Of a stretch of 64,000 nucleotides of DNA, positions 12,878-51,872 are shown piece by piece. This DNA comes from Myxococcota bacterium (GTDB taxonomy: Bacteria > Myxococcota > XYA12-FULL-58-9 > JALHOP01): NCBI GenBank assembly GCA_022842935.1, contig JALHOP010000012.1, forward strand, positions 1-64,000. Reading direction: 5' to 3'. Position 1 is the first letter of the stretch. Each line of letters starts with the position of its first letter. Position numbers and translations under genes: made by a program. The notes under the pieces were generated by a model, which was not told where the DNA came from, made no database searches, and worked only from the letters and a program-made list of their open reading frames with translations.

Positions 12878-12938
12878 TGCGATTCCTGGAAACTCTTTGG
12901 CGGTCCGAGCACCGAATTAAGGTGAGTGTCGGCTCGGC

Positions 12939-13463
12939 ATGGGCCTGAACGCCAGCGATACCGCTTGGATAGCGGACGTGTATCGCAAACACCACGAGCG
13001 TGTGTTTCGCACCTGCTTGCGTTTCGCGGCGGGGGATCGCGCTTGGGCAATGGATCGGATGCAGGACGCCTTCGTCATGTTGACCCGCGATTTCGAGAAG
13101 GTCATGGACCGCGGCGACCCTGGTGGGTGGCTGTATCGCGCTGCCGTCAACGCATGCCTCATGGCGCTCAGGCGTGGCAGGGTCTGGGGGCGTATCGAAC
13201 AGGTTCTGCGCGGAGCTGGGCGCGCCCACGGCACTGCCCCCGATCGGGCGACTGGCGCGAGACGCGACATTAGCAAGCTCGAGCGGGCATTGGCTGAGCT
13301 GCCGCCGAAGCAGCGCGCGGTGTTCGTCTTGGTCGAGATCGAAGGGCGTGAGCAGAAAGAAGCAGCCGAGCTCATGCGGCTTTCCAAGGGTCAGCTCTCG
13401 AAGCTGCACACGCGGGCGCTCGAGGCGCTACGGCGCTATGAATGGGATGTCGCCCATGACTGA
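12939..13463 (+). CDS. ECF-type RNA polymerase sigma factor
   Basis: The 174-residue protein has region 2 (YRKHHERVFRTCLRF, then AMDRMQDAFVMLTRDF, the DAF motif at about residue 43) and region 4 (LERALAELPPKQRAVFVLVE with a helix-turn-helix KEAAELMRLSKGQLSKLHTRALEALR). This matches the size and layout of group 4 sigma factors. Region 4 reads LSKGQLSKLHTRA where most ECFs have S.GTVKSRLHRA. The gene overlaps the FecR-like gene by eight bases, the usual arrangement of an ECF factor with its membrane regulator. Upstream bases (GGAAAC near 12888) could hold an autoregulatory -35, but the match is weak. Confidence 0.9.
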   Translation: MGLNASDTAWIADVYRKHHERVFRTCLRFAAGDRAWAMDRMQDAFVMLTRDFEKVMDRGDPGGWLYRAAVNACLMALRRGRVWGRIEQVLRGAGRAHGTAPDRATGARRDISKLERALAELPPKQRAVFVLVEIEGREQKEAAELMRLSKGQLSKLHTRALEALRRYEWDVAHD

Positions 13464-14406
13464 GCCCTTGCAACGTGAGATTGACGAGCTGCGCCGCCGC
13501 ATCGACGCGGACGGGCTCTCGCGCGCCGAGTCCGAAGAGGTCTGGGCGGCCGTTCAGGCGCGGGCCGCCAAGCCTTTGCGGCTTATGGTGCCCGCTATCG
13601 CATTCGCAACGGCGGTGGCCACAGTGGTTGTCGCGGTTCTCGTTTTTCGCTCGAGGGACGAGGGTTGGTACCGGGTGGTCGAAGGCGCTGCATGCGTTAA
13701 GGCGGGGGATGAGCTGGTCGTCGCTGACGGGTGCGGTGAACCGGTGCTTGGCATCGGCCGCGATCGCGTACAGGTCGCCGCTGGCACGCGTTTGACCGCG
13801 GAACCTCGCGGGGTGCGGCTACGGCGCGGACGAGCACGTTTTACCATCGAGCGGCGCGCACAAGGTGAGCCTGCCTTCGAAGTGGCGGTGTCGCACGGCA
13901 CCGTCCGCGTGTTGGGGACGGTGTTCACGGTCGAGCAAGGCGACGCCGGCGGCGAGGTCGCGCTCGAGTCGGGTCGCATCGAGATGCGATGGGATGACGG
14001 GACGCCGACCGCGCAGCTGTCTGCCGGCGAGCGCCTCGCTTGGCCTCGGCCAGAGCCTTCCTCGGAGCCTGCGGTGGCGCCGGATGAGCTCCCGGATCGC
14101 CGGGAGCCGCCTAGACGCCTCGATAGCGATCCACGCACGGTGGACGCCATCATGCAGAAGCAGCTCCAGCTTCGAGGTCAGCGCCGCTACCAAGACGCCG
14201 TTGATTTGCTCGACCGTGCGAGCCGGCGCGCCGACCTCACGAAGGCGCAGCGTGAGCGTCTGAGCTTCGAGCTCGGCAACGTCCTCGGGCTCGATGGTCG
14301 CGATAAGGAGGCGTGCGCCCACTGGCGTCGGCACGTCGCGCGTTTTCCAGCCAGCGCGAAGAAAGCCGAGGTCGCAAAGCTCCTCGACGGGTGCAGCAGC
14401 AAATGA
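13456..14406 (+). CDS. FecR-like transmembrane regulator with TPR-like tail
   Basis: About 316 residues from the ATG at 13456, which overlaps the sigma factor gene by eight bases; in-frame ATGs at 13438 and 13447 are alternatives. A cytoplasmic N-terminus of about 35 residues is followed by one membrane helix (MVPAIAFATAVATVVVAVLVF) and a periplasmic FecR-type domain (GTRLTAEPRGVRLRRGRARF, then VSHGTVRVLGTVFTV, then LSAGERLAW). The last 100 residues look like one or two tetratricopeptide units (YQDAVDLLDRASRRA). Such proteins act as anti-sigma factors or signal transducers for the ECF factor encoded just upstream. Confidence 0.8.
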   Translation: MTEPLQREIDELRRRIDADGLSRAESEEVWAAVQARAAKPLRLMVPAIAFATAVATVVVAVLVFRSRDEGWYRVVEGAACVKAGDELVVADGCGEPVLGIGRDRVQVAAGTRLTAEPRGVRLRRGRARFTIERRAQGEPAFEVAVSHGTVRVLGTVFTVEQGDAGGEVALESGRIEMRWDDGTPTAQLSAGERLAWPRPEPSSEPAVAPDELPDRREPPRRLDSDPRTVDAIMQKQLQLRGQRRYQDAVDLLDRASRRADLTKAQRERLSFELGNVLGLDGRDKEACAHWRRHVARFPASAKKAEVAKLLDGCSSK

Positions 14407-15185
14407 GCCGCGCCCTCGTGCTTGCCGCGTTCGTCCTCGCTGGTTGTGACACCGTCTACTATTTTTCCGACGCCGCGACCGACGACAGCGTCACCTTGCC
14501 GCTCGCAACGAGTTGCAACGAGCTACACGTGCGGTCGCCGTCACTGGGGGACGGCGTCTACACCATCGCTCCCGGTGGTGCTGGCGAACGCGAGGCTTAT
14601 TGCGACATGAGCCGCGATGGCGGTGGCTGGACCCTCCTACGAGCGGCCGACGTCGTCGATGAGCTCGTGTATCTGGTCACGGTGACCCGGGATGTTAGCG
14701 ACCGGGGCGGACTGGAGATGACGGTGGTGCCTGAAGTCGAAGGATGTGGGGAAGGCTTCGAGAACGGACAGCACCAGGTGGACTTTGACCCAGGCTTTGC
14801 CTGGACGCACTTGCGGGCGCGTTACGTGTTCGGAGGCTCGGTGAGCTGCTGGAGCATCTTTGGCGACACGTTTTACGGCGATCGTCTCAGTGGCAACCTG
14901 GTCCCGTTCGAGGCCGGGGTCGACGCCATACGGGATGAGGTCCGCATGGGGGGCTCGGCTGGCGACGATTACACGGGAGGCGGCGAAGGCCCGACCGACA
15001 ACACGCGTTGCGACAATACCGTGCAGAACTTCTGGAACCGCGCCAACGGCTTCGACGAGCGCAGCGCCGTGGTCATCCTGCGACGAGCGGACCTCAGCCG
15101 CCCCGCTGGCGTCCTCGCCGGGACGCGGTGTGTCGAGCTCAACCCCGCGACCTTGTGGCGCTATAGCGAGATTTACGTGCGCTGA
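14403..15185 (+). CDS. Lipoprotein with fibrinogen-like domain
   Basis: The 260-residue protein starts with a short lipoprotein signal (MSRALVLAAFVLAGC, lipobox L-A-G-C). The start of a fibrinogen/COLFI-like fold follows: DGVYTIAPGG, then YCDMSRDGGGWTLL, the classical Y-C-D-M...G-G-G-W-T motif. The remainder is acidic and Gly-rich with four more Cys. The ATG overlaps the FecR-like gene's stop by four bases (ATGA), so this surface protein is probably co-translated with the sigma/anti-sigma pair and may be its output or input. Fibrinogen-like domains in bacteria usually bind glycans or protein surfaces; the ligand here is unknown. Confidence 0.8.
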   Translation: MSRALVLAAFVLAGCDTVYYFSDAATDDSVTLPLATSCNELHVRSPSLGDGVYTIAPGGAGEREAYCDMSRDGGGWTLLRAADVVDELVYLVTVTRDVSDRGGLEMTVVPEVEGCGEGFENGQHQVDFDPGFAWTHLRARYVFGGSVSCWSIFGDTFYGDRLSGNLVPFEAGVDAIRDEVRMGGSAGDDYTGGGEGPTDNTRCDNTVQNFWNRANGFDERSAVVILRRADLSRPAGVLAGTRCVELNPATLWRYSEIYVR

Positions 15186-15202
15186 GAGCGACGCGAATCG
15201 CG

Positions 15203-15231
15203 TTGACAGGATCGATCCAAACGCGTTATCG
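15203..15231 (+). promoter_or_regulatory. Sigma-70-like promoter
   Basis: TTGACA at 15203-15208 and TTATCG at 15226-15231 are separated by 17 bases, a perfect -35 and a moderate -10. It points towards tRNA-Gln, about 250 bases downstream. The 298 bases between the fibrinogen-like gene and the tRNA contain no convincing gene, so this promoter would produce a long 5' leader ahead of the tRNA. Confidence 0.4.
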
Positions 15232-15483
15232 GGCGCCGCCACTTTGCCGGCCGGCGTGTGTCGATTTTCTGCGCCCGTATGGTCTGCAAAGCAGCGAAGT
15301 CCAAATGAAGATGGCGTTTCGGTATTCGGGAGTAGCTCTGGCTCTGGCGCGCGACATGTTTCCGCGTCGCCGGAAGCAGCGGCGTGGCGTGCGCGTTCGC
15401 GTGTCGTCACTCTTGGGTGTCGGACCGCGCGCGAGCTCGTGGGATATCATCCCCGTGCTCAACGATAGCAGTGTTTGGAGCGG

Positions 15484-15556
15484 TGGGGCGTCGCCAAGTT
15501 GGTAAGGCACCGGGCTTTGGTCCCGGCATTCGAAGGTTCGAGTCCTTCCGCCCCAA
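15484..15556 (+). tRNA. tRNA-Gln (anticodon TTG)
   Basis: A complete cloverleaf can be drawn. The acceptor stem TGGGGCG pairs with CGCCCCA. The D arm begins TCGCCAAGTTGG, the anticodon stem CCGGG/CCCGG encloses the loop CTTTGGT with anticodon TTG, and the T arm carries GGTTCGAGTCC. The layout closely follows bacterial tRNA-Gln. The discriminator is A at 15556 and CCA is not encoded. The last ten bases of the tRNA are part of an 18-base perfect inverted repeat with 15603-15620, described separately. Confidence 0.95.
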
Positions 15557-15690
15557 GTTCGCCTGCGGAGTGATGCAGGCGAAAATCGAAGTGATGATGG
15601 GTGGCGAACTTGGGGCGGAACCGCCCCGTATTTCGCGGCTGACGCCGCTAGCTGTGCAGCCAGTCGGCTGCACCTGGGGTTCTCCCCCAG
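15546..15690 (+). other. tRNA 3'-end inverted repeat followed by four consecutive stem-loops
   Basis: TTCCGCCCCAAGTTCGCC (15546-15563, spanning the tRNA T-stem/acceptor end) is repeated as its exact reverse complement at 15603-15620. Between them lies a 6-bp hairpin (15561-15580). The right copy can alternatively fold with 15621-15627 (GGGGCGG/CCGCCCC). Three perfect hairpins follow: 15635-15648 (5 bp), 15654-15673 (8 bp, loop AGTC) and 15674-15690 (6 bp, loop TTCTC). No T-tract follows directly, so this is not a textbook terminator. It fills the 178-base gap before prs. Confidence 0.75.
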
Positions 15691-15734
15691 ACCCCGTGAC
15701 CTCCTTTCTACGTAGCGCTTGTGAGTGAGAAGAG

Positions 15735-16685
15735 ATGCCGACGGAGCAGTCGATCAAGGTCTTCGGTGGCAGCTCGAATCCCGCGCTGACGAAGAGGATC
15801 TGCGAGTTCCTCGACATTCCGGTCGGGCAGATGCGGGTGGTGCGTTTCGCCGACGGTGAGATCTTCGTCGAGGTTGGCGATAACGTTCGCGGCGCCGAAG
15901 TGTTCGTCGTGCAGTCGACCTGTTCCCCGGCCAACGAGCACCTCATGGAGTTGCTCATCATGATCGATGCGCTCAAGCGCGCGTCGGCAAAGAGCATCTG
16001 CGCGGTCATTCCCTACTACGGCTACGCGCGTCAGGATCGAAAAGTTCAGCCGCGCACCCCCATCACCGCGAAGCTCGTGAGCGATCTCATCACGGCGGCC
16101 GGCGCCACACGCGTTCTTTCGGTCGACCTGCACGCTGGCCAGATCCAGGGCTTCTTCAACATCCCGTTCGATCACCTGTTCGCGATGCCGGTGCTTCTGC
16201 AGCACATGCGCACCAACTGGAATCCCGAAGAGTCCGTCATGGTCTCTCCGGACGCCGGCGGCGTCGAGCGTGCACGCGCCTACGCAAAGCGACTCGGGTC
16301 GTCGCTCGCCATCATCGACAAGCGTCGTCCGCAGGCCAACATCGCCAAGGTGATGAACATCATTGGTGACGTGCAGGGCAAAGACGCCATCCTCATCGAC
16401 GACATGATCGACACCGCCGGCACGCTTTCTGAAGCAGCCAACGCCCTCATGGAGAAGGGCGCGCGTCGCGTCTGCGCCTATGCCAGCCACGCTGTTTTCT
16501 CCGGACCTGCCATTGAGCGCATCGGGTCTTCGGCCCTCGAGAGCGTCGTGGTTACCGATACGATTCCTCTGAGAGACGGGGCGCGCGAATCCAAAAAGAT
16601 TCACGTGCTCACGGCAGCGCCTCTGCTCGCCAAAGCGGTCAGACGCATCCATCTCGGGGAGTCGGTTAGTAGTCTTTTCGTGTGA
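15735..16685 (+). CDS. prs: Ribose-phosphate pyrophosphokinase
   Basis: The 316-residue enzyme matches class I PRPP synthetases in length and motifs. These include FADGEIFVEVGDNVRG near the N-terminus, PYYGYARQDRK (ATP-binding loop, about residues 94-104), the VSPDAGGVERA catalytic region with nearby RRP, and the PRPP-binding loop ILIDDMIDTAGT (about 217-228). It makes PRPP from ribose 5-phosphate and ATP for nucleotide, histidine and tryptophan synthesis in the cytoplasm. It is followed by ribosomal L25 and pth, a gene order (prs-ctc-pth) conserved in many bacteria, which supports all three calls. A purine-rich ribosome site (GAGAAGAG) precedes the ATG. Confidence 0.97.
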   Translation: MPTEQSIKVFGGSSNPALTKRICEFLDIPVGQMRVVRFADGEIFVEVGDNVRGAEVFVVQSTCSPANEHLMELLIMIDALKRASAKSICAVIPYYGYARQDRKVQPRTPITAKLVSDLITAAGATRVLSVDLHAGQIQGFFNIPFDHLFAMPVLLQHMRTNWNPEESVMVSPDAGGVERARAYAKRLGSSLAIIDKRRPQANIAKVMNIIGDVQGKDAILIDDMIDTAGTLSEAANALMEKGARRVCAYASHAVFSGPAIERIGSSALESVVVTDTIPLRDGARESKKIHVLTAAPLLAKAVRRIHLGESVSSLFV

Positions 16686-16749
16686 TGTTCGTCTGACGCG
16701 TCCTTCTAGGATTTCACCTGGGTGAGCGCGTTGTTTCTGGTTCGCAACA

Positions 16750-16787
16750 GCGGACACCCTGTAGGTGCTGACACCGACAAGGTCCGC
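16750..16787 (+). promoter_or_regulatory. Stem-loop in the 5' leader of the L25 gene
   Basis: GCGGAC at 16750-16755 pairs with GTCCGC at 16782-16787, and inside them GGTG (16764-16767) pairs with CACC (16772-16775) around CTGA. The 3' side of the stem abuts the AAGGA ribosome site (from 16788), 14 bases before the ATG. It may gate translation of L25, possibly by autoregulation as known for other L25 leaders, but no known leader motif was recognised. Confidence 0.45.
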
Positions 16788-16800
16788 AAGGATTTGAGTC

Positions 16801-17520
16801 ATGAAGGTTGATGATACGATTCGTGCTTCGAAGCGTGATGCCGGTAACAAGGGCGTCGCTCGCCGTCTGCGTGCTGCGGGAAAGGTCCCGGCGGTCATGT
16901 ACGGCCCGGGCACCGATTCTCAGTTCTTGGCGCTCGACCCGAAAGAGTTCGGCATGCAGCGTCAGCAGTTCGCCTCCTCGCACTTGTTCCAGGTGCAGGT
17001 CGAAGGCGGCAAGAGCTACAAGGCGCTCATCAAAGCGGTCGATCGTGACCCGGTAAGCAGCGCCTATCTCCATGTCGACCTCTACGCCGTCGACATGAAG
17101 AAGCCGATTCGCGTCGATATCTTCGTCGAGCTCACGGGCAAGCCGAAGGGCATCATCGACGGCGGTTTGCTCACGCAGCTCATGCGCATGGTGCAGGTGC
17201 AGTGCTTGCCCGACGCCATCCCCGAGAAGCTTACGCTCGACACGTCGGACATGGGTATCGGCGACATCAAACACGTCTCCGACATCAAGTTCCCCGAAGG
17301 CGTCAAGCCGACCTCGACCCACGACGAAGCCGTCGCGGCGGTCATCGCTCCGGAAGAGATCAAGGAAGAGACTCCGGTGGCTGCTGCTGGCGCTGAAGGC
17401 GCGGCCGCTGCTGCTGGTGCTGCTCCGGCGGCCGGTGCGGCTGCTCCGGCGGCTGGTGCCAAGCCTGGCGATGCCAAAGCGGCCGCTCCAGCGGCCAAGG
17501 CTGACGCAAAGAAGAAGTAG
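16801..17520 (+). CDS. rplY: Large ribosomal subunit protein L25 (Ctc/TL5 form)
   Basis: The 239-residue protein has an N-terminal 5S rRNA-binding L25 domain (GVARRLRAAGKVPAVMYGPG) and a C-terminal TL5/Ctc domain (PIRVDIFVELTGKPKGIIDGG, later IKHVSDIKFPEGVKP). This is the long form found in most bacteria outside the Enterobacteria. The last 50 residues are almost entirely Ala, Gly and Pro with a lysine end, a low-complexity tail that is probably disordered. The ATG follows AAGGA by 8 bases. Sits between prs and pth as expected. Confidence 0.95.
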   Translation: MKVDDTIRASKRDAGNKGVARRLRAAGKVPAVMYGPGTDSQFLALDPKEFGMQRQQFASSHLFQVQVEGGKSYKALIKAVDRDPVSSAYLHVDLYAVDMKKPIRVDIFVELTGKPKGIIDGGLLTQLMRMVQVQCLPDAIPEKLTLDTSDMGIGDIKHVSDIKFPEGVKPTSTHDEAVAAVIAPEEIKEETPVAAAGAEGAAAAAGAAPAAGAAAPAAGAKPGDAKAAAPAAKADAKKK

Positions 17521-22876: not shown

Positions 22877-22928
22877 AGCCTGCTGGCCGAGTCGCTTACG
22901 ACTCGTGTCAGCGGGCTTGTTTGCTTTT
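22877..22928 (+). terminator. Rho-independent terminator after rplI
   Basis: AGCCTGCTG at 22877-22885 pairs with CAGCGGGCT at 22909-22917 (one wobble). An inner GAGTCG/CGACTC hairpin lies between, and the T-rich TTGTTTGCTTTT follows. Bases 22851-23052 otherwise contain no supported gene. Confidence 0.75.
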
Positions 22929-23052: not shown

Positions 23053-25317
23053 ATGAACGGAATGCAAATTCACAAAGAGGTCTCGTTCAAGGCCGTTCTT
23101 GGGCGTGCCTTGAGTGGCAACCTCGCTGAAGACTTCGACGCCGCCGTTCTCGACCCGGGTAAGGCAAAACATCTCGTCGTGGATCTCTGGCGCATCACCG
23201 GCGTCTCCTCGTTCGGCGTGCGCGAGTGGGTACGCGCGGCGCGCAGCGCGGCAGAGAAGGCGCGCATCTGGTTCGTCGGCGCCTCGCCGCGCATGACCGA
23301 CCAGTTCAACATGATCTCGGGCTTCGACGGCGGCGGCACGCTGCTGAGCTTCTACGGGAACTATCTCTGCCCGCACTGCGACAACGAAACGCCCGCGCTG
23401 TTCGACACTCAGCTCGACGCTGAGGCTTTTTTAGCGGACGAGGCGCCTGCCCGTCAGTGCCGTATCTGCGGCCATGTCGCCGCGCTCGACGATATCCCCG
23501 AGGCGCTGTTCGAATATGCGAGCTCCCACCCCGTTACGGGCGTCGACCCTGACGTGGAGGCCTTCCTGCAGAGCCCGCAAGCTTGGTTCGAGGTCGCGCC
23601 CGGCCAGCGCTACGCGTTTCGCAGAGTGTCCGGTACGAAAGACGGCTCGCTCGGCATCCATGGCATCATCGACGTCAGCTTCTCGGTCGACTCGATCGCC
23701 AGTGAGCTGGGCCCCGAAGTGGCGTTCGTTTTGCCGCACATCCAGCACATCGACGCGCCCTCGGGCGTCGCGCGCTGGACCGACGTCATGAGCAGGTTGC
23801 GCCGCAACCGCAAGGTCAAGCTGGTCGCGATACCGCCGGTCTTCTTGCAGCGCGCCATGGAATCGCCCGGCATGATCGCTGGCCTCGAAATCGCTTCCGC
23901 CGCCTATCCGACGCGGTGCGAGGCCTGCCAGCAGAAGGCGCTGCTACACGTCGACTCGCGCAATCCCCTCGATGCGAGCTCGCTGGCCCGCATCAAGTGC
24001 CGTGGCTGCAATAGCGGACCATTGGTTTCGCGCAGCGACTTCTCGGACATCGCCGAGATGCAGCAGTTCTTGATGAAGTCGCGGACGTCGTCTGCCCCAC
24101 CCGAGCCGGGTCAGCGGCGCCAGGCAGCCGCGGAGCGCTCCGAGGCTGGCCTACCGCCGTTTCTCGCGCAGAGCACTCCTTCGCGCTACGAGATGCTGAC
24201 GAAGATCGGCGAAGGCGGCATGGCCGACGTCTATCTCGTCCGCCAACACGGAGCGGTCGGTTTTCGCAGGCTCGTTGTCGTCAAGGTCATCCGCCCCGAA
24301 TTCTTGAACGACGACCGCTTCGTGCGCATGTTCATCGACGAGGCTCGTCTTGCGGCGCGTATCGATCATCCGAACATCATTCGCGTCCATGACCTGGGTC
24401 GCGGCAACGGCGCCTTCTTCATGGTCATGGACTTCCTCCATGGCCGCAGCATCAGCGAAGCGCTTGCGCAGACGGCCAAGCAAAACGTGCAGTGGCCGCC
24501 TGGCCTCGTTGCAAGCATCGTCGCCGACCTTTGTTCGGGGCTCGCGCGCGCGCACGTGCCGGACGCTTCCGGCAAAGCGTTGGTCCACCGTGACGTCACA
24601 CCGGCAAACGTCTTCTTGCGCTTCGACGGCATCGTCAAGCTCATCGACTTCGGTCTTGCGGGCTACCATCACCTTTCGAAAGACGCGAACCGCGCCGGGC
24701 AGGTCGTCGGCAACTTCTCGTACCTCGCACCCGAGGCGCTCAACAATCAGGATGCAACCCCGCAGCTCGACATCTGGGGCGCGGGAATCATCCTGGCGGC
24801 CCTCCTGACCGGCAAGCACCCCTTCCGCCGCAACACACCGGAAGAGACGATCATCGCCATGTTGCGTCAGCCGCCAAACCTCCAAGGCGTGCCCAAGAGC
24901 TTGCTACCGATTGTCGAGAAGTCGCTACAAAAGGACCCGACGCAGCGGTACTCCAGCGCGGCGCTCATGGAGCAGCACCTGCGAGAGGCCATGTTCGAGT
25001 TCAAGCGCGACCGTAAGTCGGGACAAGGCTTGTTGCGTTGGCTCGGCAAGAAGAGCGCCGACGAAGCCGAGCCCCAAATCACGCTCGAAGTGATGATGCG
25101 CCGCTTGTTCTCCCATCAGATCCGCATCGAAAATGAGTTCATGCGCAAGAGTGGCTCGCCTCATCTCGTCGACGCGTTGCTCGACGCCCAACCACGTGAT
25201 GTGGCACGTCTTCTTCGCACCCTGAAGGGTGAGGTCGCGGGCGCTGCATCTGCGGAAATGCTCCGCAGCGCATCCTCGGCGTCGAGCAGTGTCGACGAAA
25301 TTCTCGAAGTGTCGTAA
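23053..25317 (+). CDS. Ser/Thr protein kinase with two N-terminal STAS-like/zinc-ribbon units
   Basis: 754 residues. Unit 1 (about 10-145) is STAS-like, with the expected phospho-serine region VSSFGVREWV (S53), then FNMISGF, then a ribbon with C106/C109 and C136/C139. Unit 2 (about 205-340) keeps the fold pattern and ribbon cysteines (C289/C292, C316/C319) but reads IDAPSGVARW, so the serine is not conserved in register. The kinase domain (378-650) is complete: GEGGMADVY, Lys411, Glu430, HRD 512-514, N519, DFG 532-534. No membrane segment is visible, so it is probably cytoplasmic. It is the first gene of the signalling block and is followed 48 bases later by a HATPase gene. The kinase family is known; coupling it to STAS/zinc-ribbon units is unusual and its target is unknown. 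Confidence 0.88.
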   Translation: MNGMQIHKEVSFKAVLGRALSGNLAEDFDAAVLDPGKAKHLVVDLWRITGVSSFGVREWVRAARSAAEKARIWFVGASPRMTDQFNMISGFDGGGTLLSFYGNYLCPHCDNETPALFDTQLDAEAFLADEAPARQCRICGHVAALDDIPEALFEYASSHPVTGVDPDVEAFLQSPQAWFEVAPGQRYAFRRVSGTKDGSLGIHGIIDVSFSVDSIASELGPEVAFVLPHIQHIDAPSGVARWTDVMSRLRRNRKVKLVAIPPVFLQRAMESPGMIAGLEIASAAYPTRCEACQQKALLHVDSRNPLDASSLARIKCRGCNSGPLVSRSDFSDIAEMQQFLMKSRTSSAPPEPGQRRQAAAERSEAGLPPFLAQSTPSRYEMLTKIGEGGMADVYLVRQHGAVGFRRLVVVKVIRPEFLNDDRFVRMFIDEARLAARIDHPNIIRVHDLGRGNGAFFMVMDFLHGRSISEALAQTAKQNVQWPPGLVASIVADLCSGLARAHVPDASGKALVHRDVTPANVFLRFDGIVKLIDFGLAGYHHLSKDANRAGQVVGNFSYLAPEALNNQDATPQLDIWGAGIILAALLTGKHPFRRNTPEETIIAMLRQPPNLQGVPKSLLPIVEKSLQKDPTQRYSSAALMEQHLREAMFEFKRDRKSGQGLLRWLGKKSADEAEPQITLEVMMRRLFSHQIRIENEFMRKSGSPHLVDALLDAQPRDVARLLRTLKGEVAGAASAEMLRSASSASSSVDEILEVS

Positions 25318-25365
25318 TAGGCAGGGGGGCGCAGTGTCGCTTTGTCTCGCGGGGACAGGAACAAC

Positions 25366-26337
25366 ATGGGTGTTGTGACCAGTGCGGTGAGTCCCGAGAT
25401 TTTGTTTTTCTGGGGCGATAACAAAGACCGCCGCGCGCTCTTCAAGGTCCTAGCTGCCACCGGCGCCTCCGTGCGCTACGCGGAGGATGTCGCGGCCCTG
25501 GACCAGGTCGCCAACTGCCGCCTCGTGGTCCTCGACTACGACTCGGCGCGCGCACTTTCGACGGACGTCATGCGTCGTCTTGCGGTCATGCCGTTGCCGC
25601 CGCCCGTGCTTGTCGTTACGTCGAGCCGGGACAAGGGCGACCTCATCGAGCTCTTCTCCCACACCGTGATGACGAACCTCGTCGCCAAGAACCAAGATCT
25701 GCTGGCGAGCGAGCTCATCGTGACCGTCCGCAAGATCATGCACAACCACATCTTCGGGCTCGAGAAGTACCTGACGTGGGGTGTGCATACATACGAGTAC
25801 TCCATCAGCGGTTCCGATGGACGGCATCAGCCGATGGCTGACCTCCGCGCCTATCTCGAACGGCTGGGGGCCAACCGGCGCCTCATCGGATTGGCTGAGG
25901 GCGTGGCTGACGAGCTCATCCAGAACGCTGTCTACAACGCTCCAGCGGACAGCGCGGGAAAGCCGAAGTACGCGAGCCGTTCGCGTACCGAGCCTGTCGT
26001 GCTGCTGCCAAACGAAGAGGTGCGCTTCTCGTTCGCCTCAGACGGCCGATTTCTGGCCATCTGCGTCGCCGATCGCTTCGGCCGTCTCGAGACCGAGACT
26101 GTGCGCAACTACCTGCGCAAGTGTTTCCTTCAGGGTGAAGACCAGATCGACAGCAAGCAGGGCGGTGCAGGTCTGGGCCTTTACTACATCTTCCAGTCGC
26201 TCAACCATTTCATCATCAATGTCGCGCCCGGTGTACGAACAGAGCTCATCGGGTTGCTGGACATCTCGGGCACCTTCAAGGACTTTGTCCAACAAGCGAA
26301 GTCTCTCCACCTCTTCTTGCAACGGAATGCCAAGTAA
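25366..26337 (+). CDS. Receiver-like/HATPase protein, possible anti-sigma-type kinase
   Basis: 323 residues from the ATG at 25366, placed 5-6 bases after AGGA; a TTG at 25342 is open. Residues 10-125 resemble a receiver fold (EILFFWGDNKDRRALFKVL, then RLVVLDYDSARA with D57/D59) but lack the usual acidic pair at the N-terminus. Residues about 170-300 are a GHKL ATPase: N box ADELIQNAVYNA, VADRFGRL, and the glycine-rich GGAGLGLYYIF. No HisKA dimerisation region or phospho-His is seen, so it looks more like an RsbW/SpoIIAB-type protein kinase than a histidine kinase. The stop overlaps the STAS gene by one base (TAATG), a strong sign of a functional pair. Confidence 0.8.
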   Translation: MGVVTSAVSPEILFFWGDNKDRRALFKVLAATGASVRYAEDVAALDQVANCRLVVLDYDSARALSTDVMRRLAVMPLPPPVLVVTSSRDKGDLIELFSHTVMTNLVAKNQDLLASELIVTVRKIMHNHIFGLEKYLTWGVHTYEYSISGSDGRHQPMADLRAYLERLGANRRLIGLAEGVADELIQNAVYNAPADSAGKPKYASRSRTEPVVLLPNEEVRFSFASDGRFLAICVADRFGRLETETVRNYLRKCFLQGEDQIDSKQGGAGLGLYYIFQSLNHFIINVAPGVRTELIGLLDISGTFKDFVQQAKSLHLFLQRNAK

Positions 26338-26810
26338 TGGCCGGACTGGTCTGGAATTTCGCCAAGGGCAACCAGCAGACGATCATCGTCAAGCTAACGG
26401 GCTCGATCGATGAAGACTCACGCCTCGAACGGCTAGCGGCCGATCTCAAGAAAACGGCGGCGCCGCTGCGCTTCGATCTTTCTGGGGTGAAGCGCATCAA
26501 TTCGTGCGGCGTGCGCGAATGGGTGAACTTCATGCGCAGCATTCCGAAGACGACCGACGTCGTCCTCGAGAATTGCGCGCCCATCGTGGTCGCGCAGATC
26601 AACATGATCAGCAACTTTGCCGGACACGCCAAGGTCGCCTCCGTGAAGGCACCGTTCGTCTGCGAGGCGTGCGGCTACGAAGAAGAAGCGACCATCAACG
26701 TCGTCCCGGGTAGCCGGCCGCAGTTCCAAAGTCGCGCTTGTCCGAAGTGCGGAAAGCCGCGCCTCATCTTCGATGACCTCGAAGAGAGCTACTTTGCTTT
26801 CATGAGCTGA
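26337..26810 (+). CDS. STAS-like/zinc-ribbon protein (putative anti-anti-sigma-type partner)
   Basis: 157 residues. Residues 10-105 are STAS-like: LRFDLSGVKRINSCGVREWV places S56 where RsbV/SpoIIAA carry their phospho-serine, and QINMISNF matches the same position in the kinase's unit 1. A zinc ribbon follows (C109/C112 and C135/C138), then an acidic end. STAS proteins of this sort are phosphorylated by a HATPase partner and dephosphorylated by a PP2C enzyme. The HATPase is encoded immediately upstream with a one-base overlap. The zinc ribbon is not part of normal anti-anti-sigma factors; it may bind metal, redox-active species or nucleic acid. Confidence 0.82.
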   Translation: MAGLVWNFAKGNQQTIIVKLTGSIDEDSRLERLAADLKKTAAPLRFDLSGVKRINSCGVREWVNFMRSIPKTTDVVLENCAPIVVAQINMISNFAGHAKVASVKAPFVCEACGYEEEATINVVPGSRPQFQSRACPKCGKPRLIFDDLEESYFAFMS

Positions 26811-26820
26811 CGGAGTGCAT

Positions 26821-28182
26821 GTGGAGACGACTACCGCGTCCGCCAGGGTCGTGGGGGTGCCGCAAAGCGCCATCAAGGTCGTTCTGGACCAGCTCATGGA
26901 TGCGGCGGTAGTGGTCGACGAGCAGTTGCGACCCATTGCTTGGAACACCCGCTACCTGTCTCAGGTCGGTCTTCGCGCGGGTCAGTTCCAACGTCTGCAC
27001 AATACCGGCGAGCTGCGATGCCACGGCCTCCTCAATCTCGACATCTGCGGCGCCAGGTGTCTTGCGACGCGCGTCCGCGAAAGCAGGCGCATGGTGCGAG
27101 AGGACGAGGTGGGCGGGCTCGCGGTGCGCGCGCCAGCCATCGATGACGGTCCAGGCAGCGAGCGTTTCACCTTCATCGTCACGGCAGCGCCCGTCGTCGA
27201 TGATGACGGCAACACCGTTGGTGTTCTCGAGGTCTACCGCGATGTCACCGCCGAAGCGCGCATTCAAGCGCGCTACAAGTTGTTGCTCGAGCAAGAGCGC
27301 AGGCGCGTGGAATCCCTCGAAGAAACCGTCCGCGACCGCACACGCGACCTCGAGCGCTCGCTCGACGAGCTCAAGCGCACCCGCGAAGAGCTCGTACGCT
27401 CCGAGAAGCTGTCCGCTCTCGGGCAGCTCGTTGCTGGCGTCGCCCATGAGATCAACAACCCCATCAACTTCATCACGGGCAACCTGCCGTTTCTCAATGA
27501 CCACGTCGGCAACCTCCTCAAGGGCATCGATGCAGCGCTAGCGATCGCAAGCACCGAAGAGCAGGTCGCCAAGGTCACGGCGATTCGCAAGGAGATCGAT
27601 CTCGAGGAGACCCGGCGTGACATCGCCGCTATCATGGAGTCGCTGCGCGTCGGTACAGACCGCGTCACGACGATTGTTCGCGACCTACGCCGCTATGTGC
27701 ACGGCGGCGATACCACGACGGCTGATATCGACGCCGCGCGTTGCCTCGATATGGCGGTGTCGCTGATGCGCATGGAGCTGCGCAGTCACCACGCGGTTGT
27801 GCGTAGCTACGACCCGAAAACCCCGAAGGTGGCGGGTAACGAAGGGCAGCTCACCCAGGTCTTCATCAATCTCATCTCCAACGCGATCGGTGCGATGAAC
27901 GGACCTGGACGCATTGAGCTCGGCGTGCGGCCCGACGGCGAGGGCGTCGCCATCACGGTCACCGACAACGGCAGTGGCATCCCCGAGGCCAACTTGCTCC
28001 GCATCTTCGATCCCTTCTTCACCACCAAAGAGGTGGGCGCCGGTACGGGGATGGGTCTTGCTATCGCACACGCGATCATCGACCGCCACCGCGGCAAGAT
28101 CGCAGTCAAGAGCAAGGTCGGTGAAGGCACGACGTTCACCGTGTGGTTGCCAAACGTCGCGACAGGCTACACTGCTGGTTGA
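26821..28182 (+). CDS. PAS-domain sensor histidine kinase
   Basis: 453 residues from a GTG at 26821, 5 bases after GGAG; a GTG at 26815 is also in frame. The PAS domain (about 15-145) contains a cysteine group, R-C-H-G-L-L and D-I-C-G-A-R-C, of the kind seen in PAS domains that may bind metal or respond to redox. A coiled coil (LEETVRDRTRDLERSLDELK) leads to the kinase core: H box LVAGVAHEINNPINFI, N box NLISNAIGAM, DNGSGIPE, IFDPFFTTKE and G2 box GTGMGLAIAH. No membrane helix, so a cytoplasmic sensor. It lies 10 bases after the STAS gene and 9 bases before a response regulator. Confidence 0.93.
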   Translation: METTTASARVVGVPQSAIKVVLDQLMDAAVVVDEQLRPIAWNTRYLSQVGLRAGQFQRLHNTGELRCHGLLNLDICGARCLATRVRESRRMVREDEVGGLAVRAPAIDDGPGSERFTFIVTAAPVVDDDGNTVGVLEVYRDVTAEARIQARYKLLLEQERRRVESLEETVRDRTRDLERSLDELKRTREELVRSEKLSALGQLVAGVAHEINNPINFITGNLPFLNDHVGNLLKGIDAALAIASTEEQVAKVTAIRKEIDLEETRRDIAAIMESLRVGTDRVTTIVRDLRRYVHGGDTTTADIDAARCLDMAVSLMRMELRSHHAVVRSYDPKTPKVAGNEGQLTQVFINLISNAIGAMNGPGRIELGVRPDGEGVAITVTDNGSGIPEANLLRIFDPFFTTKEVGAGTGMGLAIAHAIIDRHRGKIAVKSKVGEGTTFTVWLPNVATGYTAG

Positions 28183-28191
28183 GGGATATTG

Positions 28192-28635
28192 ATGACAGAT
28201 CGTCCATTCAAGGTTCTGGTCGTCGATGACGAGCCTCACAACGGTGACGCCGTTCGTCGCGCCTTCAAGAAGAACGACGAGGTTAGCGTTGAGCTGTCGC
28301 TCTCGGGCCAGGAGGGCCTCGAGGTGCTGCGCAAGCGGCAGTTCGACTTGTTCCTCGTGGACTTCTCGATGGCTGGCCTGAACGGCGTCGAGTTCGTCGA
28401 GCAGGCGCGGCGCGACGCTCCCGACTCGGTCTTCGTGATGCTGACCGGCTATCCCGAGCTACGGCAAGTCGTCGAAGCGCACGCCCGTGGCGTCGTCGAC
28501 GGAATTCTCGGCAAGCCCTGGAGTATCGAAGAGCTTAATCTCGCGCTGCGCCAAGCCCGCGCGATGCGCCATATGCGCGCGATCCGAAAGGGGCCGTCCC
28601 TTGCGCGCCCGGCCCCGAAGACGAACAACGGCTAG
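28192..28635 (+). CDS. Single-domain response regulator
   Basis: 147 residues: receiver domain with VLVVDDEPHN, phospho-acceptor Asp in LFLVDFSMAGLNG (about residue 57), the T of VMLTGYP and the conserved Lys in LGKPW. A basic tail of about 25 residues follows with no output domain. Similar receivers precede HD-GYP or other outputs, but here the frame stops. It is probably the phosphorylation partner of the PAS kinase just upstream and may pass phosphate or act by protein contact, perhaps on the STAS/kinase proteins of the same cluster. The ATG lies 7 bases after GAGGG. Confidence 0.9.
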   Translation: MTDRPFKVLVVDDEPHNGDAVRRAFKKNDEVSVELSLSGQEGLEVLRKRQFDLFLVDFSMAGLNGVEFVEQARRDAPDSVFVMLTGYPELRQVVEAHARGVVDGILGKPWSIEELNLALRQARAMRHMRAIRKGPSLARPAPKTNNG

Positions 28636-43931: not shown

Positions 43932-44948
43932 TCACTGACCTTGCGCACCCGCTAGGTTCGCAAGGTCGATCTGCGCACGACGATGCGCTGCTTCGTCGTG
44001 CCAACGATACACGCGATGGATGATGCGCCAGTTTTCGAGGAACGGCGCGAGGTCGTAGCGCAGGTCGTGCAAGGTCTTTTCGGTAGGCGCTTCGGCGAAG
44101 CGTGCGATCACCGATCCCATCACTGCCTCTGGCTTCCAAACCTTCTTTCCAAAGGCGCCCTTGAGCATGCCGAGGACCCCCGTCTTGGCTGGCTGGGGGC
44201 TCGTGGCTGGGCCGCGCGCGTCGAGCGTCACTGTCGCGAAAGCGTACGTGTGCGACGCTTGGAGCGGTTGCCACGCGTCTGGGCCAGCTTGGGCCGCCTC
44301 GACGGCGATGGTCGCGAAGTCAGGCGGTAGGGGAGCCGTGCCCACGAGATTGTCACTGGCGGTCAGCTCGTCGTGCGAGCGGTCGTTGACGAAATAGATG
44401 GCGGCGTCGTGCTTCTTGGCCAAAAAGTCGAGCGGGTCGCGCACCGACGCCAAGAACTGGGGCAGCTGCGTCGCGTCTTCCATGAGGCTCGCGGAGCGCC
44501 GCAACTGCTCGCGCATCACGAGCAGCATTCCGATGTCTTGTGAGCTACGAAGACACGCTCGCATGACGCTGTAGAGGCTGTCTTTCGTCACCTCCGGCTT
44601 CGCCATGTAGTAGTCGATGTCGTAGTCGTTCATCACCTTTTCGATGGGGGCGTAACCAGGCTGACCGGTGCGCAGCACCAGCCGCAGCGACGGTGGCTGC
44701 GTCTCGCGGATGTGTCGGCAGAGCTCGAGGCCAGCTTCCGTCGTCTCCATCACGACGTCGACGAGCGCCACGTCGATGTCGGCGCCGTGGTCCGCGAGCT
44801 TCTCGCGCGCTTCTTTCGCGGACAACGCACTCTCGAGATGGAAGTGTCGTCCCCGCCAGCGCTCGGTACGCAACGCCACGCGCGTGATGACGTGCATGTC
44901 TTCTTCATCGTCGACGACGAGAATGTGCCACTTGCCGTCTTTGGTCAC
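43932..44948 (-). CDS. REC-DUF3369 response regulator without output domain
   Basis: 338 residues from a GTG at 44948, 7 bases after GAGGA. The receiver domain (HILVVDDEEDMHVITRVAL, then VALVDVVMETTEAGLELC with the phospho-Asp, then VLRTGQPGYAP) is followed by a DUF3369-like region (DYDIDYYMAKPEVTKDSLYSVMR... LRSSQDI). No HD-GYP, GGDEF or kinase domain follows, only a GAF-like part and a helical end. It is one of three related proteins in this operon. Phosphorylation by the histidine kinase encoded at 47053-48801 is likely; the output is unknown. Confidence 0.88.
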   Translation of the reverse strand: MTKDGKWHILVVDDEEDMHVITRVALRTERWRGRHFHLESALSAKEAREKLADHGADIDVALVDVVMETTEAGLELCRHIRETQPPSLRLVLRTGQPGYAPIEKVMNDYDIDYYMAKPEVTKDSLYSVMRACLRSSQDIGMLLVMREQLRRSASLMEDATQLPQFLASVRDPLDFLAKKHDAAIYFVNDRSHDELTASDNLVGTAPLPPDFATIAVEAAQAGPDAWQPLQASHTYAFATVTLDARGPATSPQPAKTGVLGMLKGAFGKKVWKPEAVMGSVIARFAEAPTEKTLHDLRYDLAPFLENWRIIHRVYRWHDEAAHRRAQIDLANLAGAQGQ

Positions 44949-44964
44949 GGCCGTTTCCTCGGGC

Positions 44965-45957
44965 TTACTGCGCCAGCGCTACTGGACGATCCGGCTCGGA
45001 CGTTTGCATCGGCAGATCAGGCAGCGGGGTGTAGCGCGCCGGGGGCATGACCACGTCGGCGTTCAAGGGAGGCGCCGCAGGCGGCGCGGGCAGCAAGCTG
45101 GACAGATCGAACGACAGGGCGGACACGTCGGCGAGGATGTAGTCACGGCGCACCGTCGGGATACGACGGCGAAGCACTTCGTTGAAGCGGCTATAGTCGC
45201 TACGCGTGGCGTTGCGCCATCCGTCGATGATCCCCGGCACGGGTGGGAGCTTGGTCTCACGCAGCTTGGTGCGCATGCGCTCCGCCGTCGCACCGTCGAT
45301 GCCGCGCGTATTGAGTGCCAGGACGGGTAGCGGCACCTTGTTGAGCGCTGTGATTTCCTTGAGCGCGCCGATCTTCGGGTCGAGCCGTGCGTAGTCGGCG
45401 CGATAGGCGAGAACGCCGTCCCCTTCGCCCGCGGCGACGGTCGAAAGCGCGGCGCGCGCGTCGCGACTACCTTTGATGCGCTCGACGATGCCAGCGCTCC
45501 TCGGCTCGTCGCCGAGCAGCCAGTAGCGCAACGCCATCTTGTCTTCCTGGCCGCCGCCCGGCACGGAGATCTTGCCCTTGGACAACAACGCGAACGCCGA
45601 TTCCCACGAGGCTTTCCCGTACACGGCGATCGGCGCGGCGTTGTCGCCTTGGCGGACTGCCTCGAGGAGAGCCTCGCCCGCCGGCACTCCGGCAAAGCCG
45701 GTGGCGTCGGTCACCCAGACTTGCTGCTTGCTGAGCCCGTTCGGGTCCTGCACCACCGTCGCGGTGGCGGTGCCCCCGAGCGCGGCACCAATCGCCGCTT
45801 CCACCTTGGTGATGAAGTCGGCCTTGGCGCCCGAGTCTGCGAAAAAGAGCGACGGCACGTAAACGCCAACGTTGACGTTCTCTTGAGCGGACGCCGCTGT
45901 AGCGACCAGGGTCGTCAGAAAGGCGAGAGCAACGGGCAAGGGTGGGCACCGGATCAT
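44965..45957 (-). CDS. Exported PhnD/phosphonate-binding-like periplasmic protein
   Basis: The 330-residue protein has a signal peptide (LPVALAFLTTLVATAASA) and then a two-lobed binding-protein fold: VGVYVPSLFFADSGAKADF, then VPAGEALLEAVRQGD, then SAALSTVAAGEGDGVLAYRADY, resembling phosphonate/phosphate-type binding proteins but with a C-terminal extension rich in Pro. It starts with an ATG that overlaps the upstream regulator gene by four bases (ATGA). There is no ABC permease or ATPase nearby, so it may be a sensor component rather than a transporter subunit. Confidence 0.7.
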   Translation of the reverse strand: MIRCPPLPVALAFLTTLVATAASAQENVNVGVYVPSLFFADSGAKADFITKVEAAIGAALGGTATATVVQDPNGLSKQQVWVTDATGFAGVPAGEALLEAVRQGDNAAPIAVYGKASWESAFALLSKGKISVPGGGQEDKMALRYWLLGDEPRSAGIVERIKGSRDARAALSTVAAGEGDGVLAYRADYARLDPKIGALKEITALNKVPLPVLALNTRGIDGATAERMRTKLRETKLPPVPGIIDGWRNATRSDYSRFNEVLRRRIPTVRRDYILADVSALSFDLSSLLPAPPAAPPLNADVVMPPARYTPLPDLPMQTSEPDRPVALAQ

Positions 45958-47012
45958 GGATTCGAGCCCACTTCGCCGCGACCGCCATCGCGTTGTTGGA
46001 TCTGCCAGAACGCCTCTGCGTCGAGTGAACGCAGGCGCGCGATATTCTCTTGTGCCAGCAAGATTCCGTAGACGAGCTGCCAGTTCTCCATGAACAATCG
46101 CAAGTCGTGGACCAGGTCGTCGTATTGGCGGCCGGCGATCTTGTCCGCCGGCATGTCGACGATGAGGCCACCCAAGACCGCCGAGCTCATGTCGTACTTC
46201 TCACGGGCGCGGAACCAGGTCGTCAGCCGTGCCCAGATGCCGCGCTCGGCATGGCTGCCGGTGACGCGCGTCGGGAGCACCAGCTGTGTCGGCTGCAGGC
46301 CAACGAGGTTGCCAGCGTGGACGCTGTCGACCGACAGCTTTTGCTCATGCGCTTTGCCGAGAGCATCGAGCGCACGCTGCGCGTCCAGCGGGCTACCCAT
46401 GCTACGAAGCGTGACGCTAATGTAGGCGTTCTTGGCAGGGCGATTGATGTCGCTTACGAACGCGAAGCGCACGCCATGCTTGTGCTCGAGAAATTGCAGC
46501 GTGTTGCGCATGACGCCGAGCAGCTCGTCGACCGAGGCGACATCGCGAAGAGCAGTCGTCAAGCTGCGCAGCTGACCGCCCAGCGCGACCAAGGTACCGA
46601 TGTCTTGCGCGCTGCGCAGGCAGCTGCGGATCACCGAATAGAGCAGGCGCTCGTTGACCTCTTCCTTTGAGAGGTAGAAGTCGATGTCATAGTCGTTGAG
46701 GACCTTCTCTTCAGGGGCGATGCCTGCTTGGCCCGTCCGCAAGACGATGCGCAGGGTTCGCGGAAGGTTGGCCCGGATCCATTTGCACAGCTCGAGGCCG
46801 GCGTGGTCGCTCTCCATGACGACATCGACGAGGGCAACATGGAACTGATGCTCGTCGTAGTTCTGGAGCATCGCCTGCGCTTCTTTCGCCGTGTAGCAGC
46901 TCGTCAGCGAAAATGACCGCTCGCGCCAAACGCTGCGTTTGAGCACGAGGTTGGTGATGCGGTGGATATCCTCTTCGTCGTCGACGACGAGCACCTTCCA
47001 AGGTTCCGCCAT
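45954..47012 (-). CDS. REC-DUF3369 response regulator without output domain
   Basis: 352 residues: receiver with VLVVDDEEDIHRITNLVL, VALVDVVMESDHAGLELC (phospho-Asp) and VLRTGQAGIAPEE, then DYDIDFYLSKEEVNERLLYSVIR and LRSAQDIGTL of DUF3369, a GAF-like part (FLEHKHGVRFAFV) and a helical end. It is clearly paralogous to the regulator at 43932-44948 and to the N-terminal half of the kinase at 47053-48801. Its stop overlaps the binding-protein gene's ATG, which argues that the periplasmic protein belongs to this signalling pathway. Confidence 0.88.
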   Translation of the reverse strand: MAEPWKVLVVDDEEDIHRITNLVLKRSVWRERSFSLTSCYTAKEAQAMLQNYDEHQFHVALVDVVMESDHAGLELCKWIRANLPRTLRIVLRTGQAGIAPEEKVLNDYDIDFYLSKEEVNERLLYSVIRSCLRSAQDIGTLVALGGQLRSLTTALRDVASVDELLGVMRNTLQFLEHKHGVRFAFVSDINRPAKNAYISVTLRSMGSPLDAQRALDALGKAHEQKLSVDSVHAGNLVGLQPTQLVLPTRVTGSHAERGIWARLTTWFRAREKYDMSSAVLGGLIVDMPADKIAGRQYDDLVHDLRLFMENWQLVYGILLAQENIARLRSLDAEAFWQIQQRDGGRGEVGSNP

Positions 47013-47052
47013 TCAAAAAGCCTCTGTGTGTGACCGTCGTCCGCGAACCGTT

Positions 47053-50222: not shown

Positions 50223-51872
50223 CTACCGACTCGCCGCGACCGGCGGTGCCGGCGGCTTCTGCTGACCCATCCGCTCGCGAGCCAGCGTGTTGACACGGCA
50301 GACCACCAACGTGATGTCGTCGGCACGCGGGGTCGCACCAAAGTAATTGTATGCGCCCTCGACGACGCGGGTTCGCACGTCGCGGACGTCTGCCGAGGCG
50401 TTGTTGCGTAGTGTCTGGATGAAGCGGCGCTGACCCCACGCCTGACCCTCGGCGTTTTCGCACTCGATGAGCCCGTCCGAGAACAAGACGACGAGGTCGT
50501 TTTCCGCGAGGTCGTGGGTCGACACCTCGAACGGCAAGCCATCGCCCAGGCGACCGCCGCGAGCGATGAGCGGCTTGACCTTGTTGCCCCGTAGCAAGAG
50601 CGGGAAATTGTGTCCTGCATTGGCGTACGTCATCGTCTTCGCTTGCGTGTCGATGAGCAGTGCGAAGAACGTCATGACGAGCTCGCCCTTACCGGCCTCT
50701 TGAATGACGTAGTCGAGCGCCTTCAGCAGTGTCACGAGGTCGATGTTCTTGTTGTCGCGCAACAGCGTGTCGCATGAAGCCTTCGCCGATGCGGTGAGCA
50801 TGGCGGAGGGAATGCCGTGGCCCGTAACGTCGCCGACGCAGAGCAAAACCTTGGTGTCCGAGACGCGGTAGTGATGCCACCAGTCGCCGCCTACCTGGGC
50901 TGCGGATTCGATGAAGCCGCAGTACTGCAGCCCGGCGTGCTCGGCCACGTCGATTGAGGGCACGAGCAGCGCCTGAATCGCGCTCGCGCGCTGCAGCTCC
51001 TGCTCGATCGCTGCCTTCTTGACGGTGTCCTTCATGAGCCGATCGATCTTGTCGGTCATGTCGTTGAAGCGATTGGCGAGGACGCCAAGCTCGTCGTTGC
51101 TTGCGGCCTTGGCACGCGCCTGCATGTTCCCACGACCAACCTCGCTCGCGACCGCGGCCAAGTGACGAACAGCGCCGCTGAAGCGCAGACCGAGAAACAC
51201 CGCGACGAGGATGCCCACGGCGAGGGCTACGGCGCCGATGCCAAGGCTCTTGGCGATGGACGCAGTCACCGCGGCGACACGTTCACGCTCGATGGCCGCT
51301 AGCGTGGCTTCGATCTTCGCGGTGGAGAGCTCGAGGTACATGAAGCCCAGGTTGCGGCCCGAGAGCGTGATGGGCGCGGCGTAGGCGATCGCCTTGCGGT
51401 TACCGCCATCCCAGAGGCCTTTGAGCGTGGTCGCCTTCTCGAGCTTACCAAGCTCCGCGAGAAACGGTGCACCGACCTTGTCACCGAGAGAACCCTGGCC
51501 GGCCCGGGCGATGATGCGACCGTCACTGCGCAAGGCGATACACTCGACAACGTCGGGGTTATCTTTGCTCACGGCGTCGACGTTATCGCGGACGCGGCTC
51601 ACGTCGCCGTCAAGCAGAGGCGCTGCCGCGCTGCCAGCCATGTTGCGCACAGATTCGAGACCGCGCTGCGCAAGCGCGTCAATCTGGCTCGTCTTGAGTC
51701 GCTCGGCCGCTTGAGCGTACTGGTTGCGCGTCGCGAGCACGCTGCTCACGACGAAGCCCAGCACGATCAGGACGACGACCGCGCTGACCGCCAAGCTGAC
51801 TTTGAGGGAGATGGGGAATCTTACTCGCGAGCCCGTGCTATTCTGAGCCGCCACTTCCGCAGAACGCGCCAT
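50223..51872 (-). CDS. Membrane-bound PP2C/SpoIIE-type phosphatase with HAMP domain
   Basis: About 549 residues from the ATG at 51872. Membrane helix 1 (SLAVSAVVVLIVLGFVVSS) is followed by a periplasmic sensor of about 140 residues, helix 2 (IGAVALAVGILVAVFLGL) and a HAMP domain (AVRHLAAVASEVGRG...LGVLANRFNDM). The SpoIIE phosphatase domain has VGGDWWHHYRV, CVGDVTGHGIPSAML, MTYANAGHNFPLLL and LFSDGLIECEN, with metal-binding Asp residues present. Such phosphatases dephosphorylate STAS-type antagonists; whether this one acts on the STAS/zinc-ribbon proteins at 23053-26810 is untested. It ends 23 bases from the heptad repeat. Confidence 0.93.
   Translation of the reverse strand: MARSAEVAAQNSTGSRVRFPISLKVSLAVSAVVVLIVLGFVVSSVLATRNQYAQAAERLKTSQIDALAQRGLESVRNMAGSAAAPLLDGDVSRVRDNVDAVSKDNPDVVECIALRSDGRIIARAGQGSLGDKVGAPFLAELGKLEKATTLKGLWDGGNRKAIAYAAPITLSGRNLGFMYLELSTAKIEATLAAIERERVAAVTASIAKSLGIGAVALAVGILVAVFLGLRFSGAVRHLAAVASEVGRGNMQARAKAASNDELGVLANRFNDMTDKIDRLMKDTVKKAAIEQELQRASAIQALLVPSIDVAEHAGLQYCGFIESAAQVGGDWWHHYRVSDTKVLLCVGDVTGHGIPSAMLTASAKASCDTLLRDNKNIDLVTLLKALDYVIQEAGKGELVMTFFALLIDTQAKTMTYANAGHNFPLLLRGNKVKPLIARGGRLGDGLPFEVSTHDLAENDLVVLFSDGLIECENAEGQAWGQRRFIQTLRNNASADVRDVRTRVVEGAYNYFGATPRADDITLVVCRVNTLARERMGQQKPPAPPVAASR

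Follow-up and report, generated by a model that had tools for sequence, protein, structure and literature searches.

What might a SpoIIAB/RsbW-like kinase control when one of its presumed STAS partners is fused to a Hanks-type Ser/Thr kinase? The question is raised by five consecutive plus-strand genes found at 23053-28635 of contig JALHOP010000012.1 from a Myxococcota bacterium (assembly GCA_022842935.1), of which the first 64,000 nucleotides, hereafter the window, were analysed. The gene products, P0001 to P0005 in gene order, are a Ser/Thr kinase preceded by two STAS/zinc-ribbon units, a receiver-HATPase protein, a free STAS/zinc-ribbon protein, a PAS histidine kinase and a single receiver. 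We consider it reasonably likely that the cluster encodes a partner switch of the SpoIIAB/RsbW type, the clients of which are signalling enzymes and not a sigma factor.

The five genes and the domain types of their products, as described in an original prediction made from the sequence alone, were confirmed by coordinates, Pfam, family profiles and structural models (Table 1). The genes lie close together: genes 1 and 2 are 48 bp apart, genes 2 and 3 overlap by 1 base, and the next two gaps measure 4-10 bp and 9 bp; the ATG of the free STAS gene shares bases with the stop codon of the HATPase gene (TAATG at 26335), as had also been noticed earlier. A strong terminator-like hairpin marks the boundary between the cluster and the upstream genes. 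Promoter and terminator consensus scans gave results no better than those obtained with shuffled sequences.

P0002 alone has no significant Pfam match, and NCBIfam and PDB sequence searches were likewise unhelpful. When compared with solved structures, a 20-row profile of the P0002 family matched receivers over residues 9-135 (best natural protein, 1.4e-5) and HATPases over residues 223-279 (2.5e-5). In the AlphaFold model of P0002 (predicted local distance difference test, pLDDT, 87.7; predicted template modelling score, pTM, 0.87), the receiver region consists of alternating strands and helices. Foldseek matched the model to SpoIIAB (1til_E, E 6.2e-5, TMt 0.76), to RsbW of the RsbV/RsbW complex (6m37, TMt 0.78-0.79) and to receivers, so that the HATPase fold anticipated earlier is borne out. 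P0002 thus combines a receiver and a HATPase in one protein, and neither Pfam nor the model revealed a PP2C domain. The HATPase features N, G1 and G2 boxes in a predicted Ser-kinase fold. Residues E183, N187, D236, G239, G269 and G271 are present in every one of the 111 homologues for which the alignment covers these six positions, five additional rows, cut or misaligned at these positions, having been excluded. An N-box Glu is the mark of SpoIIAB-type Ser kinases.

The same domain might be viewed as an ATP-binding scaffold, or as the remnant of a histidine kinase, which does not phosphorylate STAS proteins, with the two-component and Ser/Thr kinase genes of the operon being only loosely connected to one another. 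The silence of Pfam on P0002 would fit this explanation, as would the fact that the HATPase part of the family profile also matches histidine kinases. However, SpoIIAB and RsbW are among the named HATPase matches in the best 50 of Foldseek, and the invariant Glu/Asn N-box, the conservation of the STAS acceptor Ser and the linkage to SpoIIE, both reported below, would be left unexplained. We regard a non-phosphorylating HATPase as very improbable.

The D-D-T-K pocket of the P0002 receiver is complete in the window, nearly intact in a related locus (L021) and partly lost in most other lineages. Its retention, while most lineages have lost part of it, lends some support to the link to the adjacent two-component pair suggested by the original prediction. 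An intact receiver pocket as the general sign of an adjacent histidine kinase was considered and rejected, as loci L025 and L098 lack the receiver Asp despite a nearby histidine kinase, and locus L056 has a full pocket and no histidine kinase nearby.

P0001 matches Pkinase (Pfam, E 8.9e-42), and its G-loop, VVVK, HRD and DFG motifs are all intact. Two STAS/zinc-ribbon units and the Ser/Thr kinase domain were recognised by hidden Markov models (HMMs); the STAS_2 match (3.3e-4) is under the Pfam cut-off. The first 371 residues were modelled (pLDDT 82.2), and the best PDB match of the model is SpoIIAA of the SpoIIAB complex (1thn_B, E 3.4e-4, TMt 0.61), 4hyl, an anti-sigma antagonist from Haliangium, being matched as well. 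The STAS fold predicted for these units is thereby upheld. The free protein P0003 has a zinc-ribbon CxxC...CxxC pattern and is a probable STAS protein, on the basis of a Pfam STAS match just under the cut-off (3.1e-4) and of its homology to unit 1 of P0001 (BLASTP, 29% identity, E 1e-12), with which it has GVREWV and NMIS-x-F in common. The match to unit 2 is lower (E 6e-6), and the paralogy that had been proposed on account of these motifs holds for unit 1.

The alignment places the phospho-acceptor at Ser53 in unit 1 of P0001 and at Ser56 in P0003, the positions previously put forward, and reveals a Pro at the corresponding position of unit 2. After duplicate loci had been taken out by hand, the acceptor Ser was found in 50 of the 51 single-unit STAS/zinc-ribbon proteins, in 18 of 20 kinase units 1 and in 2 of 19 kinase units 2, which commonly have Pro or Ala instead. 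All four cysteines are retained in 45/51, 20/20 and 17/19 of the same sequences, respectively. The two units of the kinase, earlier taken as equivalent, are therefore not so, the phospho-serine having been lost from unit 2 in 17 of 19 kinases. S56, G58, R60, W62 and the four Cys of P0003 are invariant in 14 free or non-kinase members. Conserved cysteines are the sole observation in line with the metal or redox gating of the original prediction, which is otherwise unsupported.

Among 58 related genomes, the HATPase occurs in 19, STAS/zinc-ribbon proteins in 19 and both in 17 (Fisher 1.3e-10), in counts that ignore kinship. Of 28 HATPase matches, 17 have a STAS/zinc-ribbon match no more than 5 kb away, where 0.10 would be expected from uniform placement, and two further genomes carry the pair at contig ends. 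The conserved co-occurrence across Myxococcota that had been foreseen is consequently supported. The five-gene set recurs, with one extra receiver, in the genome of a bacterium from another family of the same taxonomic order (L021/L071), and tandem-STAS kinases adjoin the HATPase in several families. A collection-wide scan, performed with a 7-row HATPase alignment because the 20-row version was too diverse, retrieved 80 loci, mostly from records titled Myxococcota, Deltaproteobacteria or Proteobacteria; single or few records are titled SAR324, Oligoflexus, Bdellovibrionaceae, Omnitrophota, Planctomycetota and Schekmanbacteria.

The window also encodes a HAMP-SpoIIE protein (SpoIIE 2.6e-39, HAMP 5e-8, Pfam), the only strong SpoIIE in the genome. 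This gene did not figure in the original prediction. All 19 HATPase genomes carry a strong SpoIIE, compared with 6 of the 39 others (1.9e-10); half of the HATPase matches (14/28, expected 0.27) lie within 20 kb of one, and in several loci SpoIIE genes adjoin the HATPase-STAS pair. In a tree of 46 SpoIIE rows, the window and module-linked phosphatases are separated from 15 of 17 unlinked phosphatases by a branch with 98/96 support (93/96 in an earlier tree retaining three long rows); linkage was assigned by proximity, and the window phosphatase, 24 kb off, was entered as linked. The two exceptions stem from short contigs of genomes that also carry module genes (G011 and G022). Given the distance, and judging from sequence relationships, this SpoIIE is probably, although not certainly, the dedicated phosphatase of the module.

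In one Myxococcota family (f13), the order of genes is SpoIIE, TPR protein, phosphonate-binding-like protein, TonB receptor, HATPase and STAS-kinase. In these genomes, one of which is a single contig, kinase-fused STAS was found and free STAS was not, while HATPase and SpoIIE are retained. This bears on the mechanism originally predicted, in which the STAS unit of P0001 keeps this kinase bound to the HATPase until dephosphorylated P0003 displaces and frees it. Such competition would agree with the acceptor Ser and the common ancestry of the P0001 and P0003 STAS domains, with the overlap of the free STAS and HATPase genes and with the recurrence of the five-gene set in L021. Since a lineage without detected free STAS has phosphatase, HATPase and STAS-kinase, however, a free competitor is not required, and P0003 as the necessary releasing factor was not borne out. 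Competition as the sole mechanism was set aside on account of this one lineage, and we deem it unlikely. It rather seems that the STAS tag of the kinase itself is the switch, and that free STAS proteins constitute a second arm together with P0004.

The neighbours of free STAS genes, also overlooked earlier, point the same way. A PAS gene is present within 150 bp of 23 of 53 non-kinase STAS genes and of none of 20 kinase-fused ones (Fisher 1.4e-4), follows or faces the free STAS gene, and is found even at loci without a STAS-kinase, which again argues against competition for the kinase. No such neighbour was detected for the majority of non-kinase STAS genes, so that adjacency is a tendency. 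The PAS domain is of the P0004 type and is found either on its own or combined with a histidine kinase or GGDEF, which suggests a second output arm. P0004 itself features PAS, HisKA (4.4e-6) and HATPase_c (4.5e-28) domains, and two-component hallmarks are present both in P0004 (H-box VAHEINNP at 207) and in P0005 (acceptor Asp57). Residues C67, C76 and C80 of the P0004 PAS domain form a C-x8-C-x3-C pattern, present in most homologues beside STAS genes, which is a candidate metal or redox site.

Gene fusions connect the same components. HATPase and STAS are fused in L127 (detected by our own HMMs, Pfam being silent), and other loci feature SpoIIE-HATPase (L146), Ser/Thr kinase-SpoIIE (L090, L094) and histidine kinase-receiver-SpoIIE (L098) proteins. 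Partner-switch components classically target sigma factors (PMC8256260), and the module could accordingly control a sigma factor located elsewhere in the genome, as RsbW systems do, the kinase being a mere modifier. Pfam scans of genes neighbouring the module loci revealed no sigma factor, no genome-wide search for a sigma partner having been made, and the recurrent partners are instead STAS-fused Ser/Thr kinases, GGDEF, PAS and PilZ proteins. We consider sigma factor control improbable.

By analogy with SpoIIAB and SpoIIAA, P0002 should bind unphosphorylated STAS domains and phosphorylate, in an ATP-dependent manner, Ser53 of P0001 and Ser56 of P0003, and the HAMP-SpoIIE phosphatase should remove these phosphates. 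P0001 would be gated through its unit 1, to which the HATPase would bind; phosphorylation of Ser53 would either allow or break this binding, which could hold P0001 either off or on, and the sequence does not discriminate between the two. The phospho-dead unit 2 and the zinc ribbons would have a structural role. P0003 would be the second arm of this HATPase, with the adjacent P0004 as its most likely target, and might compete as well with P0001 for the HATPase. Lastly, P0004 and P0005 may feed back via the P0002 receiver domain, phosphate being passed from histidine kinase to receiver.

Several observations weigh against a partner switch of this composition. The SpoIIE gene is about 24 kb from the module, and could serve a second HATPase/STAS pair located on another contig (C19) of the same genome. 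The nearest relative with the five-gene set (G006) has two strong SpoIIE proteins, neither of which is in the module-linked group. Another genome (G005) carries a free STAS, PAS histidine kinase and receiver series with no HATPase detected, and the free STAS-PAS arm may thus work without a HATPase. The disregard of kinship in the co-occurrence counts also tells against the proposal.

Table 1. Features of the five-gene cluster and of the candidate phosphatase gene in the window.
Feature	Position	Strand	Evidence
Terminator-like hairpin	22877..22917	+	RNA fold -32.8 kcal/mol, z -5.45, then T-rich stretch
Gene 1, P0001, STAS/zinc-ribbon x2 - Hanks Ser/Thr kinase, 754 residues	23053..25317	+	Pkinase, domain HMMs
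P0001 STAS/zinc-ribbon unit 1, Ser53 codon 23209-23211, Cys106/109/136/139	23059..23526	+	Domain HMM, predicted STAS fold
P0001 STAS/zinc-ribbon unit 2, phospho-serine replaced by Pro, Cys289/292/316/319	23611..24018	+	Domain HMM, alignment
P0001 Ser/Thr kinase domain, residues 379-641	24187..24975	+	Pfam
Gene 2, P0002, predicted receiver-HATPase of SpoIIAB/RsbW type, 323 residues	25366..26337	+	AlphaFold model, Foldseek
P0002 receiver domain, D18, D57, T85, K108	25393..25740	+	Family profile, model, pocket residues
P0002 HATPase domain, E183/N187, D236/G239, G269/G271	25792..26319	+	Conservation in homologues
Gene 3, P0003, probable free STAS/zinc-ribbon protein, 157 residues, Ser56 codon 26502-26504, Cys109/112/135/138	26337..26810	+	Pfam STAS, conservation
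Gene 4, P0004, PAS histidine kinase, GTG start 26815 or 26821	26815..28182	+	Pfam PAS_4, HisKA, HATPase_c
Gene 5, P0005, single receiver	28192..28635	+	Pfam Response_reg 1.2e-18
HAMP-SpoIIE phosphatase, hydrophobic N-terminal stretch, candidate module phosphatase	50223..51854	-	Pfam SpoIIE, HAMP

Additional arrangements were observed. The second pair of the same genome (C19, ~12900-17500; L030:9872-15512) consists of a 391-residue STAS/zinc-ribbon protein facing a 1483-residue PilZ-TPR protein, the C-terminal end of which is the same HATPase domain as in P0002; PilZ is fused to or adjoins this HATPase also in L050, L052 and L031. In L127:1072-5772, from an Omnitrophota metagenome-assembled genome, genes encoding SpoIIE (Cache-HAMP-GAF), the HATPase-STAS fusion and PAS-GGDEF are consecutive, which makes this a compact variant whose output is a diguanylate cyclase. 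A receiver-GGDEF-GGDEF gene is located opposite the HATPase-STAS pair in nine loci (L080, L082, L083, L084, L086, L087, L089, L091 and L093). The cluster at L032:1798-14541 contains genes for three STAS-STAS-kinases, one free STAS protein, the HATPase, SpoIIE and PilZ/FHA/receiver proteins, and tandem STAS/zinc-ribbon proteins of 738-755 residues, in which no kinase domain was detected, are encoded beside the HATPase gene in L111:13997-16213 and L140:15873-18140. Many loci feature, upstream of the HATPase, a TPR protein of ~800 residues and a protein of ~300 residues, a possible input arm (for instance, L038:2488-5819, L117:6130-9599, L072:6584-9930 and L033:5437-8678). The smaller protein is periplasmic phosphonate-binding-like in three of these four examples, and in some such loci no STAS gene was detected. 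In the window, three minus-strand genes at 43932-48801 encode proteins with N-terminal receiver domains, one of which also has HATPase_c.

Myxobacteria have very many Ser/Thr kinases. The module may represent a widespread and undescribed class of partner switch, present in Myxococcota and a few further phyla. Such switches would use an RsbW-type kinase and SpoIIE to gate Hanks kinases via fused zinc-ribbon STAS domains, and would have exchangeable further outputs such as PAS-histidine kinases and PAS-GGDEF proteins; we put the chances of this generalisation at about even. If true, a switch for such kinases would be named, in which one Ser-kinase/phosphatase pair acts on the STAS tag carried by the target kinase. 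Hanks kinases and partner switching are usually treated apart; the module would join them and would tie both to two-component and cyclic-di-GMP signalling via the exchangeable outputs.

Bacillus SpoIIAB/SpoIIAA/SpoIIE and RsbW/RsbV/RsbU likewise comprise a HATPase with a Ser-kinase fold, a STAS protein with an acceptor Ser and a SpoIIE-type phosphatase. In contrast to these switches, the module features a zinc ribbon on STAS, a Hanks kinase fused to tandem STAS units and a receiver on the HATPase, and its Pfam-scanned neighbours include no sigma factor. The stressosome RsbR/RsbS/RsbT also combines STAS proteins with a HATPase kinase, but neither an RsbR-type sensor-STAS nor a kinase of RsbT size was seen in the cluster. 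In HsbR/HsbA of Pseudomonas, SypE/SypA of Vibrio and CrsR/CrsA of Shewanella, a response-regulator-type kinase similarly acts on a STAS protein, and outputs differ from the classical sigma-B type switch; HsbA and SypA provide a precedent for such outputs (PMC6482189, PMC8256260). PA3346 (HsbR) and SypE are each reported to have both kinase and phosphatase activity (PMC8256260), whereas the phosphatase is a separate protein here, and Hanks kinase and zinc ribbon have not been described for their systems. In CapK/CapS, a GHKL kinase phosphorylates a STAS domain and the output is again not a sigma factor but a DNA-binding repressor, SpoIIE not being mentioned (PMC13373217, 2026). STAS domains fused to Ser/Thr kinases, possibly linked to eukaryotic-like kinases (ELK), were reported in Sorangium cellulosum in 2010, and the portion of that account at hand describes no zinc ribbon, dedicated HATPase or module (PMC2887360). 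The same portion mentions a single SpoIIE-like phosphatase with HAMP in Myxococcus xanthus, mxan4562, which may be a candidate member of such a module. In the open-licence literature, we found no published description of this module or of a Hanks kinase/STAS partner switch. Partner switching itself and STAS-kinase fusions were already known; what appears to be new is a STAS/zinc-ribbon partner switch that seems to be wired to both a Ser/Thr kinase and a histidine kinase.

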